Shown: positions 15,375 to 34,973 of the stretch, piece by piece
Numbering within the stretch: the first letter of the stretch is position 1
Layout: every line of letters starts with the position of its first letter
NCBI GenBank assembly: GCA_016873315.1
Contig: VGXL01000013.1
Location: 1-34,973 of the forward strand
DNA: 34,973 nucleotides
From: Phycisphaerae bacterium
Lineage (GTDB): Bacteria; Planctomycetota; Phycisphaerae; Phycisphaerales; SM1A02
Direction: 5' to 3'
Made by a program: the position numbers and the translations under genes
The notes under the pieces: model-generated
Seen by the model: only the letters and a program-made list of their open reading frames with translations
Database searches by the model: none
What the model was told of the DNA's origin: nothing

Positions 15375-16184
15375 ATGGTGCTCGGTGCCGACGCATCGTT
15401 CCTGAACCCCGACAAGCTGCTGCTCTTGGTGGTGCTTGTGGCGACGTGCGCATGCATCATTGCGAGCATGGTGTTGGCACGAGCCGGCCGCGTGCCGAAG
15501 ATTCGCCGCATTGCCGGCCTCGAGGCCGTCGAGGAAGCGGTGGGCCGCGCGACCGAGATGGGCCGGCCGATCCTGTTCGTCCCGGGCATCCAAGACATGG
15601 ACAACCCGATGACGGTCGCGGGCATCACGGTGCTCAGCCGCGTCGCGGGTACAGCCGCGCAATACGACGCCACCCTTGATGTTCCGGTGAGCCGATCGCT
15701 CGTCATGCAGGCAGCGCGCGAAAGCGTTCAGGCGGCAGCACTCCAAGCCGGTCAGCCCGATTGGTTCGACCCCGAGCGCGTTCGCTACATCACGGACGAG
15801 CAGTTCGGATACGCGGCGTACGCGGCGGGCGCGATGGCGCGTGACAAGCCTGCAGCCTGCTTCTACATGGGCTGCTTCTTCGCCGAGAGCTTGATTCTTG
15901 CGGAGAATGGCAACGCGGTTGGTGCGATTCAGATTGCTGGCACCGCGGAAACCGCGCAGCTGCCCTTCTTCGTGGCCAGTTGCGATTACACGCTGATCGG
16001 CGAGGAGTTCTTCGCAGCAAGCGCCTACCTGAGCGGGGCGCCCGACCAACTCGGCACGCTGCGTGGCCAAGACATTGCCAAGGCCTTGATCGCGTTGGTG
16101 CTCGTGGGCGGCGTGGTCATGGCCACCGTGAAGGTGTTCACGCCGAAGTCGGACCGAGCGCCGACGGCGGAGATGGCGCCATGA
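15375..16184 (+). CDS. DUF6754-type membrane protein
   Basis: The product is 269 residues. A hydrophobic segment at 14-35 and another at 235-253 flank a long central domain with ILFVPGIQDMDNPMTVAGITVL, a segment around 131-165 with YITDEQFGYAAYAAG, and ACFYMGCFFAESLILAE followed by GAIQIAGTAETAQLPFFVASCDYTLIGEE. These blocks match what I know as DUF6754, a family named only by number. The central part is partly hydrophobic and may dip into the membrane. The following gene starts within its stop codon. Biochemical role unknown; its constant company with the GlmL-like ATPase and the barrel-sandwich protein suggests a complex. Confidence 0.82.
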   Translation: MVLGADASFLNPDKLLLLVVLVATCACIIASMVLARAGRVPKIRRIAGLEAVEEAVGRATEMGRPILFVPGIQDMDNPMTVAGITVLSRVAGTAAQYDATLDVPVSRSLVMQAARESVQAAALQAGQPDWFDPERVRYITDEQFGYAAYAAGAMARDKPAACFYMGCFFAESLILAENGNAVGAIQIAGTAETAQLPFFVASCDYTLIGEEFFAASAYLSGAPDQLGTLRGQDIAKALIALVLVGGVVMATVKVFTPKSDRAPTAEMAP

Positions 16185-16876
16185 GTCGCTCGATCGCTCT
16201 GCTCATCTGCCTGCTCGGCGGACTCACCATGCTCGTGAGCCCGTTCCTGCCAATGGCCACCGAATGGTCCAACGAGGTCACGGACTGGTTCAACATCCTT
16301 GCCGCGATGGCGTTCGTGCTCGGTGGCGGCAGCCTGCTGAAGGTGCAGCTCATGCGCCTGAGCGCGCGCGGTCCCGGATGGGGCTACTCGGCCGTCACGC
16401 TCCTGGCGTTCATCGTCACACTCTGGGTCGGTCTGGGCAAGGTCGGGGTCGTTGCCGATCCATCTGCACCCACAGTGGCGTGGAGCGGCAAGCCCGACGA
16501 TGAGGGTTCGGCGTTCTGGTGGATCTATCTCTACGTGATGACGCCCATCACCTCGACGCTCTTCGCAGTGCTCGCGTTCTATGTCGCGAGCGCGGCGTTC
16601 CGCGCCTTCCGTGCCAAGAACCTCGAGGCCACGCTGCTGCTCGGCACGGCCTTCGTGATCTTGCTCGGTCGCACGTTCGCGGGCGTGGTGCTCACCGGAT
16701 GGCTGCCCGACTGGGCGAGCGGACTGCGCCTGGAAAACCTAGCCGTCACCATCATGGATGTCTTCAACACCGCCGGCAATCGCGCGATCATCATTGGGAT
16801 TGCACTCGGCGTCGCTGCGACCGGGATCCGTCTTCTGATCGGACTCGATCGCAGTTACCTCGGGGGTGACGCGTGA
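16181..16876 (+). CDS. Polytopic membrane protein (about 6 helices) of the DUF6754 operon
   Basis: The product is 231 residues, nearly all membrane. Hydrophobic segments lie at about 4-24, 36-55, 73-91, 112-143, 148-175 and 200-222. A short outside or inside loop with PSAPTVAWSGKPDDEGS separates helices 3 and 4, and FRAFRAKNLEATLLL follows helix 4. No transporter signature is recognisable. The ATG overlaps the preceding stop by 4 nt, with GGAG 8 nt upstream, and its own stop overlaps the next GTG. Clearly part of the same translation-coupled block. Function unknown. Confidence 0.75.
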   Translation: MSRSIALLICLLGGLTMLVSPFLPMATEWSNEVTDWFNILAAMAFVLGGGSLLKVQLMRLSARGPGWGYSAVTLLAFIVTLWVGLGKVGVVADPSAPTVAWSGKPDDEGSAFWWIYLYVMTPITSTLFAVLAFYVASAAFRAFRAKNLEATLLLGTAFVILLGRTFAGVVLTGWLPDWASGLRLENLAVTIMDVFNTAGNRAIIIGIALGVAATGIRLLIGLDRSYLGGDA

Positions 16877-17742
16877 GCGGCACACTGGACAGGCGGTGGA
16901 TTTACCTCGGCATGATGCTCGCCGTCGCGCTGCCGATCTTGTGGAACGGCGTCACCGGCAAGACGTTCCCTGAGTCGCCGACGCCGCCGTCGCAGGCGTG
17001 CTTCGATGCAATCGAGGCGTTGCCCGAAGGTTCGCGGGTCTTGATGAGCTTTGACTACGACCCCGCGAGCGAGGGCGAGTTGTCACCGATGGCCACATCG
17101 TTGATGCGACACCTGATGCACAAGCGACTGAAGCCGGTCGTCATTGCACTGTGGCCGCTTGGACCGACGAAGGCCGAGGAAACGATCGCGAATGTGATCA
17201 AGGGTGACTTCCCCGACCGGGTGAGCGGGAAGGACTTCGTGAACCTGGGTTTCCAGACCGGCGGCGAAGGCGTCCTCAAGGTGATCGGCACAGACTTCCG
17301 CAAGCAGTTCCCGCTCGATCGATCGGGCACACCGGTCGATCGCCTGCCGATCATGGAAGGCATCACCAAGGTCGGTGACTTCCCGCTGGTCATCACGATC
17401 AGCGCGGGCTACCCCGGCGGCAAAGAGTGGGTGCAGTATGTCTCGAGCGCGAACCCAGGCTTGGTCTTGCTCGCTGGCGTCACAGGTGTGCAAGCTTCGC
17501 AGATCTACTCGTACTACCCAGGCCAACTTCGCGGCATGCTCGCGGCGATCAAGGGTGCAGCGGAGTACGAAGCGCTGGTGAGCGCAGCGATCGACGGTGA
17601 CCGCGTGACGCCGCCTCTCTACACCGAGGCTCGCCGACGCATGGCGCCGCAACTGTTCGGACATCTTCTGCTGATCGCGCTGATCATCATCGGAAACGCC
17701 GTGTACTTCTCGCAGCGTGGACGGAAGGCGGTGGCACAATGA
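16873..17742 (+). CDS. Bitopic protein with large extramembrane domain, DUF6754 operon
   Basis: The product is 289 residues from a GTG that overlaps the previous stop. A first hydrophobic segment (about 10-28) and a last one (about 268-285) enclose a soluble alpha/beta domain. In it, VLMSFDYDPASEGELSPM (about 57-74), KPVVIALWPLGP, FVNLGFQTGGEG, YPGGKEWVQY and AGVTGVQASQIYSYYPG...MLAAIKGAAEYE stand out. The pattern of alternating strands and helices resembles a Rossmann-like or periplasmic-binding fold, but no cofactor motif is certain. A G-G-G-G-G-T stretch before the GTG may act as ribosome site. Function unknown; probably the soluble sensor or catalytic part of the membrane complex. Confidence 0.75.
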   Translation: MSGTLDRRWIYLGMMLAVALPILWNGVTGKTFPESPTPPSQACFDAIEALPEGSRVLMSFDYDPASEGELSPMATSLMRHLMHKRLKPVVIALWPLGPTKAEETIANVIKGDFPDRVSGKDFVNLGFQTGGEGVLKVIGTDFRKQFPLDRSGTPVDRLPIMEGITKVGDFPLVITISAGYPGGKEWVQYVSSANPGLVLLAGVTGVQASQIYSYYPGQLRGMLAAIKGAAEYEALVSAAIDGDRVTPPLYTEARRRMAPQLFGHLLLIALIIIGNAVYFSQRGRKAVAQ

Positions 17743-18797
17743 GCGACGCGATCATGAATGAAGCGTCGCCTCAGCAAGGCAAGTGGTGGATCGGCCTCTT
17801 CCTTGCGATCGCTGTGCTCGTGGCGATCCGCGCCAGCATTGGCGAGGGTATGGGCCGCGCCTATGTGCAGACTGACTCGACGTCGTACTCGTCCGCGACG
17901 GGCGACGATGGCCGAGTGATGTGGACGGCCGTCGCCGACGGAACGGCTGGATCCGTCACGATTGAGCGGGTGCTCTTCGCGTCAGCAGGGGAGTACCGCG
18001 CGGCTGAAGCAGCGACGCCTGGTCAGCAGGCGATCCGCATCTCGTGGGACCGAACCCTGGGACTATGGTTGGCGGCGTTCTTCACGCTGGCAATCTTCAG
18101 CTTCCTGATGGGCGACAACCCGGCCTACAAGTTCACCGAGAGCATCGTGATCGGTGTGAGCGCCGGATACTGGATGGTGGTTGGCTTCTGGGCAATGCTC
18201 GTCCCCAAGCTCGTGGCGCAACTCGCTCCGAGCATGGTCAAGGCGTGGTGCATGCCCAATCTCGATGTCAGCGCGTTCAATCCAGTCGCCCTGATCCCGC
18301 TTGGCTTGGGCATCATGCTGCTTTCGCAGCTCACGCCGCTGGGCCGCCACATCGGCCGCTGGCCGCTGGCGTTCGTGATCGGCACGTTTGCTGGCTTGAA
18401 GATGATCAGCCATGTCGAGAGCGACATCATTGAGCAGGCGCGCGCCACGATGATTCCCCTCGTTGCGTTCGGCGACGACGGATCCTTCGCACCGTGGGAT
18501 TCAGTCCGCAACATCCTCATCGTGGGCGGGGTGCTGTGCACGCTCGCGTACTTCGTCTTCAGCGTCGAACACAAGGGCGCTGTTGGCCGTGCGGCGCGGG
18601 TGGGTGTGTGGTTCCTGATGATCACCTTCGGATCGGCCTTCGGCTTCACAGTCATGGGTCGCATTGCGCTGCTCGCGGCTCGCTTTGAATTCCTCTTCAT
18701 CGATTGGCTCTGGCTCATCGATCCCAAGGGACAGCGGATGGTGGCAACCGTGTCCGCGATCGCGGGGTCTTGCTCAGCGATCCTGAACGCGATCTGA
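17739..18797 (+). CDS. Polytopic membrane protein (about 7-8 helices), last gene of the DUF6754 operon
   Basis: The product is 352 residues. A first helix (about 16-33) is followed by a polar domain of about 70 residues (34-105) that is likely extracytoplasmic. Six or seven further hydrophobic helices run to the C-terminus, including SIVIGVSAGYWMVVGFWAMLVPKLV and a final FEFLFIDWLWLID. A purine-rich site (GGAAGG) precedes the ATG, which overlaps the preceding stop by 4 nt. The last codons and the stop lie within a set of 8-bp direct repeats that may control the porin gene downstream. No family name recognised. Confidence 0.75.
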   Translation: MSDAIMNEASPQQGKWWIGLFLAIAVLVAIRASIGEGMGRAYVQTDSTSYSSATGDDGRVMWTAVADGTAGSVTIERVLFASAGEYRAAEAATPGQQAIRISWDRTLGLWLAAFFTLAIFSFLMGDNPAYKFTESIVIGVSAGYWMVVGFWAMLVPKLVAQLAPSMVKAWCMPNLDVSAFNPVALIPLGLGIMLLSQLTPLGRHIGRWPLAFVIGTFAGLKMISHVESDIIEQARATMIPLVAFGDDGSFAPWDSVRNILIVGGVLCTLAYFVFSVEHKGAVGRAARVGVWFLMITFGSAFGFTVMGRIALLAARFEFLFIDWLWLIDPKGQRMVATVSAIAGSCSAILNAI

Positions 18798-18812
18798 ACG
18801 CAACCTGAACGC
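18783..18812 (+). repeat. Three perfect 8-bp direct repeats at 11-bp period (Pho-box-like)
   Basis: CTGAACGC occurs at 18783-18790, 18794-18801 and 18805-18812, each separated by 3 nt. The 11-bp period is that of PhoB/PhoP boxes; cyanobacterial Pho boxes also use 8-bp repeats with 3-nt spacers (CTTAACCT). The repeats overlap the end of the upstream gene and lie about 65 bp before the porin -10 box. That is farther than classical PhoB sites, so the role is a hypothesis. Confidence 0.5.
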
Positions 18813-18864: not shown

Positions 18865-18893
18865 ATGGTGCCTGCCTATGCTTCATGCACCAT
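18865..18893. promoter_or_regulatory. 7-bp inverted repeat flanking the porin -10 box
   Basis: ATGGTGC (18865-18871) and GCACCAT (18887-18893) form a perfect dyad with a 15-nt centre that contains TATGCT. The right arm covers the start codon. It could be an operator or an RNA hairpin. Confidence 0.35.
18877..18882 (+). promoter_or_regulatory. -10 box of the porin gene
   Basis: TATGCT is followed by 9 nt and the ATG at 18892. Confidence 0.5.
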
Positions 18894-20292
18894 GATCCAC
18901 CTCCCCATGATCCATCTCGCGACAGTCCTCGCAGGTTTCAGCGTTGGTCTTGGCGGTGATGGCGGAGTTCAGGACGAGATCGATGCGCTGCGCGCCGATC
19001 TACGCGAATTCCAGCGGAGTCAGTCGCAGGGCACGCTCGACGCTGAGCGCGCCGCAGAGATCCGCGCGATCGTGAAAGACGCACTCTCGGACGCGGGCAC
19101 GCGCACCTCGATGCAGGATGGCCGCGGCCAGCAGGGTTTCCAAGGCGACAACTTCTACCGGCTCGATGCGTCCGGCACCGAGATCAACTCGGCCGACGGC
19201 AATTTCCGTTACCACCTGAACATCCTGATGCAGTTGCGGTTCACCTGGAATCACCGTGAGGATCTGGGTGACACCATGGGGTTCGAGAATCGCCGTGTGC
19301 GGTTCATCATGGATGGTCATGCCTTCGGCAAGGAGTGGCGCTACGCGTTGCAGGTGGCCCAATCGGCCGGGGCCTCTCCTGTGTATCTCGAAGAGGCCTG
19401 GGTCGGACGAGTGCTTTCACCCCAGCTCCAACTGAAGGTTGGGCAGTTTCGCCCCACCTTTACGCGCGAAGAACTGATGAGCGCGGCGTCGACGCTCTTC
19501 ATGGAGCACAGCGCGATCAACAACTACTTCCGGGCGGGATGGTCGCGTGGCATCGCGCTTGAGTGGGAGACCGATCAGTTTATGTGGCGCAGTGGAGTGT
19601 TCGACGGCATCACTGTGCGATCGCCGACCACGCCCGGTGGGGCTGGTTGGAACACGGGCAACACGAACAACTTGCCGTGGGACAATCCGTTGGCCATCGA
19701 CTGGGCGATCGCGAGCCGCTTCGACTGGAAGTTCGCGGGAACCTGGAAGGAACTGCGCGACTACACGCCGTGGCTCGACATGAAGGGGCAGGCCACCAAC
19801 CTTGGCGTGGCTGTTGATGCAGAACAGGCGAGTCCATCGGCACCGTTCCCTTCCGATCCGTGGATGATCGAGGTCACGGCCGATCTTCTGCACAAGCACC
19901 AGGGCTGGTCGCTCTTTGCGTTGGGCGTCTTCCGTCGCGTGCAGAGCGACCTTGGCCAGTCGAACGAATGGGGCGCACTCGTGCAGGCCAGCACGATGCT
20001 CGCCGAAAAGTTGGAGACTGGTGTTCGGTACAGCGTCGCCAACACGGGCGCGTCATCCGACCTGTCGTACCCCATGCTCAACCTCCTTGAACTGAACCTG
20101 AGCTACTACTTCCACAAGCACAGCATGAAGGTTCAGTTGGACATGGGCTACTCGTTCGATGGTCTGAGCGCGAACAAGTTCGGCAACGGTTTCGCGAACC
20201 CAAACGCCAACCTGTTGCCTGATGTCCAGCCACCGACGGGCGATGCCTCGGGGCAGATGTACGTCGCCGTCCAGTACCAAGTGCTCTTCTGA
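18892..20292 (+). CDS. OprP/OprO-like outer-membrane porin
   Basis: The product is 466 residues. A signal peptide (hydrophobic IHLATVLAGFSVGLG) is followed by a short coiled coil (about 28-70, DEIDALRADLREFQRSQSQ), as in trimeric porins with an N-terminal stalk. A beta-barrel follows, with RRVRFIMDGHAFGKEWRYALQV, LQLKVGQFRPTFTREELMS and GIALEWETDQ, blocks typical of the phosphate-selective porin O/P family. It ends in an aromatic C-terminal strand, YVAVQYQVLF, with the terminal Phe needed for outer-membrane insertion. The ATG at 18892 is preferred over 18862 because of the -10 box. The ion transported may be phosphate or polyphosphate; the upstream repeats favour this but do not prove it. Confidence 0.85.
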   Translation: MIHLPMIHLATVLAGFSVGLGGDGGVQDEIDALRADLREFQRSQSQGTLDAERAAEIRAIVKDALSDAGTRTSMQDGRGQQGFQGDNFYRLDASGTEINSADGNFRYHLNILMQLRFTWNHREDLGDTMGFENRRVRFIMDGHAFGKEWRYALQVAQSAGASPVYLEEAWVGRVLSPQLQLKVGQFRPTFTREELMSAASTLFMEHSAINNYFRAGWSRGIALEWETDQFMWRSGVFDGITVRSPTTPGGAGWNTGNTNNLPWDNPLAIDWAIASRFDWKFAGTWKELRDYTPWLDMKGQATNLGVAVDAEQASPSAPFPSDPWMIEVTADLLHKHQGWSLFALGVFRRVQSDLGQSNEWGALVQASTMLAEKLETGVRYSVANTGASSDLSYPMLNLLELNLSYYFHKHSMKVQLDMGYSFDGLSANKFGNGFANPNANLLPDVQPPTGDASGQMYVAVQYQVLF

Positions 20293-20307: not shown

Positions 20308-20313
20308 TATGCT
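20308..20313 (+). promoter_or_regulatory. -10 box of zwf-pgl
   Basis: TATGCT is followed by 9 nt and the zwf ATG at 20323. Confidence 0.5.
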
Positions 20314-20322
20314 CCGGCGCCC

Positions 20323-21894
20323 ATGACGGCCGCGCCGATTGCCCCAGCGACTTCCAGCCAGCCCGCCACGACTTTGACCCAGTCGTCCGCGGGTGCCGAC
20401 CCGTGCGTGCTCCTGATCCTTGGCGCGAGCGGCGACCTGACGCATCGCAAGCTCATCCCGTCGATGTACGAGATGCACTGTCTCGGTGCACTCCATCCTT
20501 CGACGGCGATCCTCGGCATGAGCCGGACTGCGAAGACGGATGAGAGTTGGCGCGCGGAACTGCGTGCGGCTGCGCAGGCATCGGTGCAGGGCTTCGATCC
20601 AACCCGCTGGCAGTCGTTTGAAGAGCGGCTCTTCTATCACGCGGGCGATGCAGTGGATCAGGCGTCCTATCCGGCGCTCGTCGAGCGACTGAGTGCGCTG
20701 GCGAGAACACGCGCCACGCGCGACAACATCCTCTTCTACCTCTCGGTTGCTCCATCGCTCTACGAGCCGATCGTGCGTTGCATCGACGAAGCCGGCCTGG
20801 TCACCGAAGGCAAGCGATGGTGCAGCATTGATCCCAACGGCCGATCGTGGCAACGGATCGTGGTCGAGAAGCCGTTCGGGACCGACGAAGCCAGCGCGGC
20901 AAGCCTGAACCGAGCGCTCGGCAGGGTGTTCGAAGAAGACTCGACCTACCGCATCGACCACTACCTGGGCAAAGATCTGGTGCAGAGCCTGCTCGTGCTT
21001 CGATTCGCCAACAGCATCTTCGAGCCGGTGTGGAATCACCGCTACATCGACCATGTGCAGATCACGGCGGCTGAAACCGTTGGCATCGGCACGCGTGGTG
21101 GCTTCTACGAGCAAACGGGTGCGGTGCGCGACATGATCCAGAGCCACCTGATGCAGGTGCTGGCGTTCGTGGCGATGGAGCCGCCGAATCGGATGCGTGC
21201 CAACGAGATCCGAAGCGAGAAGATCAAGATCATCGGTGCGATCAGACAGACCGCCGCGTCCGAGGTCGCCACGCACGGTGCGTTTGGCCAGTACGCCGCT
21301 GGTGCTGAGCCCGCGTACGCACAGCTTCCAGGCGTCGCGCCGGGTTCAACGGTCGAGACATTCGCCGCCCTCAAGTTGCACCTGGATACTTGGCGATGGG
21401 CCGGCACGCCGTTCTACCTTCGCACTGGCAAGGCCATGCGCGCGAAGCGCACTGAGGTCGTGGTGCAGTTCAAACCACCGGCTGCGGACCTCTTCAAGGA
21501 GGTGCCGCACGGGGCCGGCGGCGTGCAGGGCAATCGTCTGGTGATTGAGATCGCACCGCGCGAGCGCGCGGAGTTGCGCTTTGAAAGCAAGATCCCAGGT
21601 CGCCGCATGGCGATCGCGCCGATTGCGATGCAAGCGGACTTTCGCAAGGAGTTCGGCGGGAATCCCATCGAGGCGTACGGGCCGCTCATCGTGGATGCCA
21701 TGCGCGGTGACCAATCGCTCTTCAAGCACCGCACCGAAGTCGAAGGCGCATGGAGCGCGGTCATGCCGTTCCTGGATGCGCGCAGTGCGCCACTGCGCGA
21801 GGGGATTGCTGGCAACTACGCGCAGGGTTCATGGGGTCCGCGCGCGGCTGACGACCTGATGCTGCGCGATGGACGGGCTTGGCACGACGGCTGA
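20323..21894 (+). CDS. zwf: Glucose-6-phosphate 1-dehydrogenase
   Basis: The product is 523 residues and oxidises glucose-6-phosphate to 6-phosphogluconolactone with NAD(P)+, the first step of the oxidative pentose phosphate pathway. The dinucleotide site LGASGDLTHRKLIP (33-46), VVEKPFG (about 182-188) and the active-site RIDHYLGK (about 210-217) are intact. Further family blocks are FANSIFEPVWN and TPFYLRTGKAM. A 26-residue Ala/Thr/Ser-rich N-terminal extension precedes the Rossmann fold. The lactonase gene follows after 3 nt, so the two consecutive reactions are encoded together. Confidence 0.97.
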   Translation: MTAAPIAPATSSQPATTLTQSSAGADPCVLLILGASGDLTHRKLIPSMYEMHCLGALHPSTAILGMSRTAKTDESWRAELRAAAQASVQGFDPTRWQSFEERLFYHAGDAVDQASYPALVERLSALARTRATRDNILFYLSVAPSLYEPIVRCIDEAGLVTEGKRWCSIDPNGRSWQRIVVEKPFGTDEASAASLNRALGRVFEEDSTYRIDHYLGKDLVQSLLVLRFANSIFEPVWNHRYIDHVQITAAETVGIGTRGGFYEQTGAVRDMIQSHLMQVLAFVAMEPPNRMRANEIRSEKIKIIGAIRQTAASEVATHGAFGQYAAGAEPAYAQLPGVAPGSTVETFAALKLHLDTWRWAGTPFYLRTGKAMRAKRTEVVVQFKPPAADLFKEVPHGAGGVQGNRLVIEIAPRERAELRFESKIPGRRMAIAPIAMQADFRKEFGGNPIEAYGPLIVDAMRGDQSLFKHRTEVEGAWSAVMPFLDARSAPLREGIAGNYAQGSWGPRAADDLMLRDGRAWHDG

Positions 21895-21897
21895 GCC

Positions 21898-22692
21898 ATG
21901 GAGATCGATCCGTACGAACTCGTGGATGATTCGTTCGCGGCACCCGCGCTGCCTGGTCGGGTGGTCACGGGAGTCGATGCCGACGATGTGCACGGATCGC
22001 TCGGCGCGGATCTGCTTCTGCAGGCGAACAATTGCGTGCGTGCGTTCGGCTCATTCCATCTTGCCCTTTCGGGCGGATCCACGCCGCTGCCGTTCTATCG
22101 CTGCCTGATGGTCGATCCACGCTTTCGCCACCTGCCGTGGGAACGCACGCACCTGTGGGTCGTTGACGAACGCTGCGTCGCGCCCGATGACGATCGCTGC
22201 AACTTTCGGCACATCCGCGAAACGATCGTCGAGCATGTTGACATCCCGCCGCAGCAGGTGCATCCGATGGACGCCCACCTGCCGGGCGCCGCCGCTGCGT
22301 ACGACCGAGCCATTCGCGAGACGCTCGCGTGGCGCGAAGCAGGACACAACCGGCTCGACTTCGTGCTCCTGGGCATGGGCGGCGACGGCCACACGGCGAG
22401 TCTTTTTCCGCACAGTCCGGCGCTGCGCGAGTCCGACGCGCTCATCACCTTCAACGATGGCCCCACCGTCACGCCGCCGGACCGCGTCACGATGACCTAT
22501 CGACTGCTGAACGCTTCGCGATTCGTCGCCGTGCTCGTCATGGGCGCATCCAAGCACGCGATGCTCGAACGCGTGGCCCGGGCCGATGCAGAAGATGCCG
22601 CCAACCTTCCGATCCGCGGGATTGCACCGACGGGCGGAGAGCTGCGTTGGTACCTCGACCGTGCCGCCTGCACTGGCGCGCAGGCCCGCTGA
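21898..22692 (+). CDS. pgl: 6-phosphogluconolactonase
   Basis: The product is 264 residues and hydrolyses the lactone made by Zwf to 6-phosphogluconate. Family motifs include LALSGGSTPLPFYRCL (about 54-69), WVVDERCVAPDDDRCNFRHI and LLGMGGDGHTASLFPHSPAL, the NagB/RpiA-type signature with the DGH triad. Its start lies 3 nt after the zwf stop with no clear ribosome site, consistent with coupled translation. The 3' end faces ruvX with only 9 nt between the stops, so transcription of the two units must terminate in each other's coding region or read through. Confidence 0.95.
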   Translation: MEIDPYELVDDSFAAPALPGRVVTGVDADDVHGSLGADLLLQANNCVRAFGSFHLALSGGSTPLPFYRCLMVDPRFRHLPWERTHLWVVDERCVAPDDDRCNFRHIRETIVEHVDIPPQQVHPMDAHLPGAAAAYDRAIRETLAWREAGHNRLDFVLLGMGGDGHTASLFPHSPALRESDALITFNDGPTVTPPDRVTMTYRLLNASRFVAVLVMGASKHAMLERVARADAEDAANLPIRGIAPTGGELRWYLDRAACTGAQAR

Positions 22693-33896: not shown

Positions 33897-34973
33897 CCAT
33901 CCTCGGTCTTGCCTCGATCGGGTGTGGTTGCGAAACGGCCAGTTTCTTCGATCCAAGCCGGACCGGTCGGTTCGAGACCACCCCGACGACGATCCCCGTG
34001 CTCCAGCGGTTGGATGTGATCGAGGGCGTGGACCGTCTGCCGTTGAAGCCGACCGAGCCCGTTGGTGACGATGTCCAGATCCTGAGTGAACTTGAGACCA
34101 CCATTGCGGCGGGCGATGCGTTGCGTGTTGGGGTCCTCGGACGCCTGAATGCGAACCAAGAGGACGAAGCCCAGATCGTGGTCGATCCGTCGGGCAATGT
34201 CCACCTGCCCTACGGCACGGTTCATGCCGTCGGACTGACGGTTCCCGAGGTGCAGACGGCGATTGAGAAACTGCTTGAGCCGCTCCTGAACAATCCGCAG
34301 GTTCGCGTGGAGTTGCTCCGATCGGGCTCGCTCCAGTACACGATCGATGGCCAGGTCAACCAGCCAAATGTGTATGACTTGACTCGGCCCGACTTCCGGC
34401 TGCGCAGTGCGCTGGCCGCCGCGGGTGGTGCGGCTCCGACCGTCGAGACCATCTTGATCTCCCGCTCGACCGCATGCCAGGTGGACGAGACGATCCCGGA
34501 GTTGCTCACCGGCCGCGCTCGCGAGGAGTATCGCCGAACCCAAGGGAGTGAGACGACCGCGCCGGCACCCGGCGGTACCACAACCGCCCCATCGACGGTG
34601 CCCGTGGCGCCATCGACCGAGGACTTGCTCCGCGAACTCGGGGGCGGCGAAGTCGCGCCGGAACCTGCTCCAGAACCTGCACCGACTCCAGAGCCTGCAC
34701 CCGAACCCGCGCCAGCACCGGAACCTGCGCCAGCTCCCGAGCCGGCTCCTGCACCTACACCGGAACCCGCGCCTGCGCCGGATCCTGCGCCAGCTCCCGA
34801 GCCGGCTCCTGCACCTACACCGGAACCCGCACCTACACCGGAACCCGCACCTACACCGGAACCCGCGCCTGCGCCGGAACCTGCGCCAGCTCCCGAGCCG
34901 GAACCCGCGCCAGCACCGGAACCTGCACCCGCGCCGGAACCTGCTCCAGAACCTGCACCGGCTCCAGAGCCGG
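33869..34973 (+). CDS. Polysaccharide export lipoprotein (Wza/BexD-like), runs off the right edge
   Basis: At least 368 residues lie in the window. A lipoprotein signal ends in the lipobox SIGC (Cys 19). The polysaccharide biosynthesis/export domain (about 75-150) contains GDALRVGVLGR, IVVDPSGNVHLPYGTVHAVGLTVPEVQ and VRVELLRSG, the usual Wza-type blocks. An SLBB-like segment follows (YTIDGQVNQPNVYDLTR, LRSALAAAGG, about 155-195). From about residue 263 the chain becomes a Pro-Glu-Pro-Ala low-complexity tail that continues beyond the edge, an unusual extension that could span the periplasm or cell wall. It would form the outer-membrane channel for capsule or exopolysaccharide; manC upstream could supply GDP-mannose. 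Confidence 0.85.
   Translation, partial: MNLWNSKLAAILGLASIGCGCETASFFDPSRTGRFETTPTTIPVLQRLDVIEGVDRLPLKPTEPVGDDVQILSELETTIAAGDALRVGVLGRLNANQEDEAQIVVDPSGNVHLPYGTVHAVGLTVPEVQTAIEKLLEPLLNNPQVRVELLRSGSLQYTIDGQVNQPNVYDLTRPDFRLRSALAAAGGAAPTVETILISRSTACQVDETIPELLTGRAREEYRRTQGSETTAPAPGGTTTAPSTVPVAPSTEDLLRELGGGEVAPEPAPEPAPTPEPAPEPAPAPEPAPAPEPAPAPTPEPAPAPDPAPAPEPAPAPTPEPAPTPEPAPTPEPAPAPEPAPAPEPEPAPAPEPAPAPEPAPEPAPAPEP
34656..34973 (+). repeat. Imperfect PEPAPA/PTPEPA coding repeat
   Basis: At least 100 codons alternate Pro with Glu, Ala or Thr in 6-18-nt units such as CCGGAACCTGCACC, with longer duplicated blocks (for example near 34730-34820). It is in-frame low-complexity coding DNA, prone to slippage. 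Confidence 0.85.

Follow-up and report, generated by a model that had tools for sequence, protein, structure and literature searches.

Upstream of a porin gene in the 34,973-nucleotide stretch of Phycisphaerae DNA analysed here (the window) lie three perfect tandem copies of CTGAACGC with an 11-bp period, which very probably constitute a three-unit Pho box through which the PhoB orthologue of this bacterium, very probably a freshwater planctomycete, would raise porin transcription at phosphate limitation. Judged from sequence, the porin gene, perhaps together with the downstream zwf and pgl genes, is most likely phosphate-regulated. Phosphate control had been called plausible in an earlier, sequence-only reading of the window, and it is supported here by a motif common to the array and pstS, by conservation of the position in related genomes and by a single candidate regulator. 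The features of the locus are collected in Table 1.

Table 1. Features of the porin locus, in window coordinates.
Feature	Positions	Strand	Remarks
Last gene of upstream operon, no Pfam family	17739-18797	+	3′ end overlaps the putative Pho box
Putative Pho-box unit 1, CTGAACGC	18783-18790	+	Followed by spacer gat; slot matches unit 1 of relatives' boxes (CTGAACAC / CTTAACAC / CTTTACAC)
Putative Pho-box unit 2, CTGAACGC	18794-18801	+	Followed by spacer aac; holds TGA of upstream ORF (18795-18797); relatives have CTGAACAT and the homologous stop codon
Putative Pho-box unit 3, CTGAACGC	18805-18812	+	Triple arrays also stand 5′ of pstS in other genera
Candidate -10 of porin, TATGCT	18877-18882	+	64 bp 3′ of array, 9 nt 5′ of ATG 18892
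Porin gene, Porin_O_P family (PF07396)	18892-20292	+	Probable start ATG 18892; ORF listing begins at GTG 18862
-10-like TATGCT of zwf	20308-20313	+	TATGCT-N9-ATG conserved in genus
zwf, glucose-6-phosphate dehydrogenase	20323-21894	+	30 bp 3′ of porin
pgl, 6-phosphogluconolactonase family (PF01182)	21898-22692	+	Assigned by Pfam and gene order

The three copies occupy exactly the positions first reported for them, and the judgement that they are very unlikely to have arisen by chance held up in simulation: among 60 simulated windows per Markov order (orders 1 and 3), none held an 8-mer in three perfect copies at a constant interval between 9 and 30 bp. In the window itself, CTGAACGC is the sole 8-mer with three exact copies at such a fixed period, barring an 18-bp tandem repeat that lies close to the window end (approximately 34811-34905), and a second perfect pair CTGAACGC-N3-CTGAACGC is absent from the rest of the 2.42-Mb genome. 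The array has the form of a Pho box, that is, tandem direct repeats with an 11-bp period and 7-8 conserved bases each, with units that finish in GC and not in AC or AT, a point against the assignment. It also overlaps the end of the upstream operon, as had been noticed earlier, and the stop codon of the last gene falls inside unit 2.

The same motif precedes a known phosphate gene of the same genome. Between phoR and pstS, directly 5′ of pstS, stands CTTAACCCAACCTGAACAG, which has the layout of the porin array and overlaps the phoR stop codon; the porin array lies across the stop codon of its own upstream gene in the same manner. Aligned pstS upstream regions, gathered by pstS homology and independently of the motif search, contained the box in every one of the nine genus genomes, degenerate in some, with an approximate consensus CTTAACACAACCTGAACAT-TGTTCG-TGCTACGGT, in which a 3-bp linker separates two 8-bp units and a -10-like element follows about 9 bp further on; TGCTACGGT-like -10 elements follow the box at a fixed distance in the nine genomes. 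The strict core CTKAAC-N5-CTKAAC matched only the porin array (in two overlapping registers) and the pstS box in the window's genome, and its control gave one match. The idea that such repeats should precede other phosphate genes thus survived its check, both within the genus and in other genera of the family, where the motif occurs in the 11-bp layout 5′ of pstS, phoB and Na/Pi cotransporter genes.

Genome-wide scans were pattern searches. A search for CTGAACGC-N3-CTGAACGC with 3 mismatches was uninformative (66 matches against 41 for the reversed control); the pstS-derived consensus worked instead, and CTKAACMCAAYCTGAACAT with up to 3 mismatches gave 24 matches across the nine genomes of the genus, whereas its reversed control gave 1. 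Most of the extra 3-mismatch matches were dismissed as lying within coding regions, for example in a conserved SLTQPEP-coding stretch. A matrix trained on pstS- and phoB-linked boxes (training range 20.2-34.3) was scored on the window and on sampled upstream regions. It gave 25.5 for units 2-3 and 23.5 for units 1-2, both inside the training range, and these scores are supportive and not independent, because some training sites outside the genus came from a related pattern and the matrix is therefore partly circular. In 5 Mb of order-3 random sequence, one position scored at least 20 and none at least 22.

Orthologues of the porin were found in all eight relatives of the genus (75-80% identity), and wherever the flank suffices the order upstream operon, porin, zwf, pgl is kept. 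A box stands at the homologous position in five of the nine genus genomes and is absent from four; we took this as conservation, although the four absences count against the reading. The four box-bearing relatives have CTGAACACAATCTGAACAT, CTTTACACAACCTGAACAT and, twice, CTTAACACAATCTGAACAT where the window has units 1 and 2, their unit 2 likewise holding the homologous stop codon, and this position has been kept while the rest of the spacer diverged. Their fourth 11-bp slot is CTKAACAA-like (CTTGACCA in one), with an ATAGCGT-like element in register; in the window the third slot is perfect and the fourth not clear. Three of the four relatives without the box have the porin gene approximately 35 bp after the upstream stop codon, with GGAGAGG 6 nt 5′ of the ATG, an arrangement that suggests expression of the porin by read-through from the upstream operon. 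Three relatives also carry inverted units of the form CTGAACGC-N3-GCGAACAT-N3-CTGAACGC or similar in 11-bp register (L033:1400-1440, L032:2956-2990 and L035:2954-2990). These units, in the same CTGAACGC spelling as the window's unit, cover the presumed porin -10 and start and face the direct Pho box; because they overlap the presumed -10 TAGCGT, the identity of that element is uncertain.

A single gene with a Trans_reg_C domain (OmpR/PhoB type) was detected in the source genome (170 contigs, 95% complete), and it adjoins phoR-pst. The regulator combines Response_reg and Trans_reg_C (receiver and winged helix) and is followed by a PAS/HisKA/HATPase kinase, the PhoB-kinase pair expected with a Pho box. 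After the kinase gene, a PstS-like binding protein runs off contig C33; the remaining end of pstS opens contig C7, where two permease genes, an ABC ATPase and PhoU follow. Together the two contigs give the order phoB-phoR-pstS-pstC-pstA-pstB-phoU, and many genera of the family have this order too. The nearest solved relative of the regulator by sequence is RegX3 of Mycobacterium tuberculosis, a phosphate-responsive regulator of the PhoB type, and the family shows almost no variation in the recognition helix of PhoB (RTVDVHVTALRRKL-like), in agreement with the common box. The earlier suggestion that a different response regulator might bind the array found no candidate among the detected genes.

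The next gene had been described as an OprP/OprO-like porin, and Pfam places it in Porin_O_P (PF07396; E 2.6e-12, 47.1 bits against a cut-off of 20.9). Phosphate selectivity is presumed from the name and membership of the family; a sequence search of the PDB returned no solved structure that matches the porin, and an AlphaFold model built on an alignment of 4 close sequences reached a pLDDT of only 28.5. Elsewhere in the window, a DUF6754 ORF (15375-16876) and the ORF that follows it (listed start 15980) share about 200 bp, in relatives too, and the start codon of the second ORF is probably misplaced.

The promoter geometry of the porin differs from that of pstS. The stretch TATGCT-N9-ATG 5′ of zwf (window 20308-20325) is invariant in five genus genomes, the window's and four relatives', which suggests that leaderless transcripts are in use in the genus. 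The candidate porin -10 has the same spacing to its ATG, so the porin transcript would be nearly leaderless and start at about 18889-18892. The array had been said to lie about 65 bp from the -10 box, farther than in the classical arrangement, and the distance to TATGCT is indeed 64 bp; no good -10 nearer the array than 18877 was recognised. The classical PhoB activator layout, with the box about 10 bp 5′ of the -10 as in E. coli, was not found at the porin, and we class the array as a Pho box and not as a classical PhoB activator promoter. With the array 64 bp from the likely -10, against about 9 bp in the pstS promoters of the genus, its activation geometry would be unusual. The array lies at about -92 from the proposed start and the usual position overlaps the -35, so that activation from a distance, a missed nearer promoter or a negative role may each apply.

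From sequence we infer that PhoB binds the array, that it activates the porin gene and does not repress it, where transcription starts and which solute the porin carries, as parts of the following model. As in its family, PhoR would phosphorylate PhoB under phosphate limitation, and PhoB dimers would occupy the 11-bp repeats as head-to-tail operator half-sites. Bound PhoB would then increase porin transcription from the downstream promoter, probably TATGCT at 18877, and the porin would admit more phosphate, or more of another anionic phosphorus compound, through the outer membrane for the ABC transporter that PstS feeds.

The distance of the array from the -10 leaves room for a reading, improbable in our view, in which the Pho box represses or modulates only: too far away for contact with sigma, PhoB would block read-through from the upstream operon or adjust porin expression. 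The inverted CTGAACGC-like units over the presumed -10 and start region of three relatives would fit such a role as well. However, the same motif stands at classical activator spacing 5′ of pstS, the direct units of the relatives run on in 11-bp register toward the -10, and porins within pho clusters agree with induction, all of which argues for activation.

Direct repeats that recur about every 10-11 bp are general targets of OmpR-family regulators, and the porin unit, with its GC ending, is slightly unlike the pstS units; a different tandem-repeat regulator with no phosphate link could in principle account for both. We consider this very improbable given the lone Trans_reg_C gene in a genome that is 95% complete and the occurrence of the motif before pstS, adjoining that same gene. 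It is less credible still that the array is a chance or coding-sequence repeat without function. Unit 1 and half of unit 2 do lie within C-terminal codons of the upstream ORF, but simulated windows never gave such a triple, the array is unique genome-wide, its position is kept in four relatives despite divergence of the spacer, and the pstS box overlaps the phoR stop codon in the same way. Activation by PhoB at a three-unit Pho box remains the reading that we favour.

Pho boxes are 11-bp repeats in many bacteria, with a species-specific consensus (PMC4415409). As in the E. coli Pho box (PMC4415409), an OmpR/PhoB-family regulator would here occupy at least two 11-bp direct repeats in head-to-tail order, and the spacing to the pstS -10 is similar; the core differs (CTGTCAT in E. 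coli, CTGAAC here), as does the 64-bp distance of the porin array from its -10. The cyanobacterial Pho box (SphR, in Synechocystis and others) is built from three or more tandem 8-bp units joined by 3-bp linkers, with the consensus CTTAACCT (PMC1906773). The resemblance to cyanobacterial boxes that had been pointed out earlier is real, since units and linkers have the same lengths and CTTAAC is common to CTTAACCT and the pstS boxes described here, whereas the phylum, the genes and the last two bases of the unit differ (CTGAACGC here, CTTAACAC-aac-CTGAACAT in relatives). With the phosphate and polyphosphate porins OprP and OprO of Pseudomonas, the present porin shares the Porin_O_P family and, presumably, PhoB control; unlike them, its gene is linked to zwf-pgl, and it matched no solved structure by sequence.

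For lake Planctomycetes, high-affinity phosphate uptake regulated through PhoR-PhoB and OprO/OprP porins has been inferred (ISME J 2019, PMC6461901). The passage concerned gives no binding site; the operator sequence and its distribution are added here. The literature searched held no description of a planctomycete Pho box, which is weak evidence of absence as many journals fall outside its coverage. The type of control is already known; its location here and the operator consensus are locally new. The general picture of Pho regulation is unchanged by the porin Pho box, and what is gained is a concrete PhoB operator sequence for a family of largely uncultured planctomycetes, from which phosphate-responsive genes become readable in genomes, and a tie to phosphate, beyond the family name, for one of several Porin_O_P paralogues. 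A bolder proposal, which we hold to be unlikely, is that this is a planctomycete Pho regulon whose operator has a dialect of its own (CTKAACAC-N3-CTGAACAT). Within the genus, porin-zwf-pgl would then have changed between upstream read-through and expression from a PhoB-dependent promoter, joined in some species by additional inverted PhoB units across the start site, and the supply of phosphate would be coupled to the oxidative pentose phosphate pathway.

Across the family, the 2-mismatch pattern had matches in 47 of 151 genomes, and many of the matches whose surroundings were examined lie between phoR and pstS or 5′ of phoB. Triple arrays stand 5′ of pstS at L182, L187, L190 and L197, and boxes precede two Na/Pi cotransporter (Na_Pi_cotrans) genes (L208 and L214). 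Porin_O_P genes are preceded by boxes at L206 and L210 and by weaker ones at L190 and L193, and a Porin_O_P gene lies between phoR and pstS at L186, L189 and L190. A tie between the Pho box and all Porin_O_P genes was rejected: when 70 porin upstream regions were sampled on the forward strand, only five scored at least 20, all of this genus. Most Porin_O_P genes of the family thus lack a box, and Pho control, as read from these sequences, is confined to certain porins, of which several lie within pho clusters.

Similar sites precede other genes in the genus. CTTAAC-N5-CTGAAC with an ATAGCGT-like element stands 5′ of a lipoprotein-like gene (about 450 aa, no Pfam family) in each of the six genomes with this gene (L270, L264, L272, L273, L275 and L271), and this gene is likely a further Pho regulon member of the genus. 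CTGAACNNGAACTGAACAAAGTYATGGT-like (CTGAAC-N5-CTGAAC-like) sites lie 5′ of a gene whose secreted product (476 aa or more) has no clear Pfam family, in at least four of the six genomes having it (L283, L285, L286 and L287). In the window's own genome, neither of the two was detected. In three genomes, CTGAACGC-N3-CTGAACAA occurs just 5′ of the AGGAGG of an outer-membrane barrel-like gene (358-359 aa; L112, L114, L261 and L265), so near the ribosome site that it is too close for a classical activator box. Finally, reverse-strand Pho-like sites were found 5′ of porins of other genera (L241, L243, L055 and L059), above the expectation from random sequence, and may serve divergent genes.
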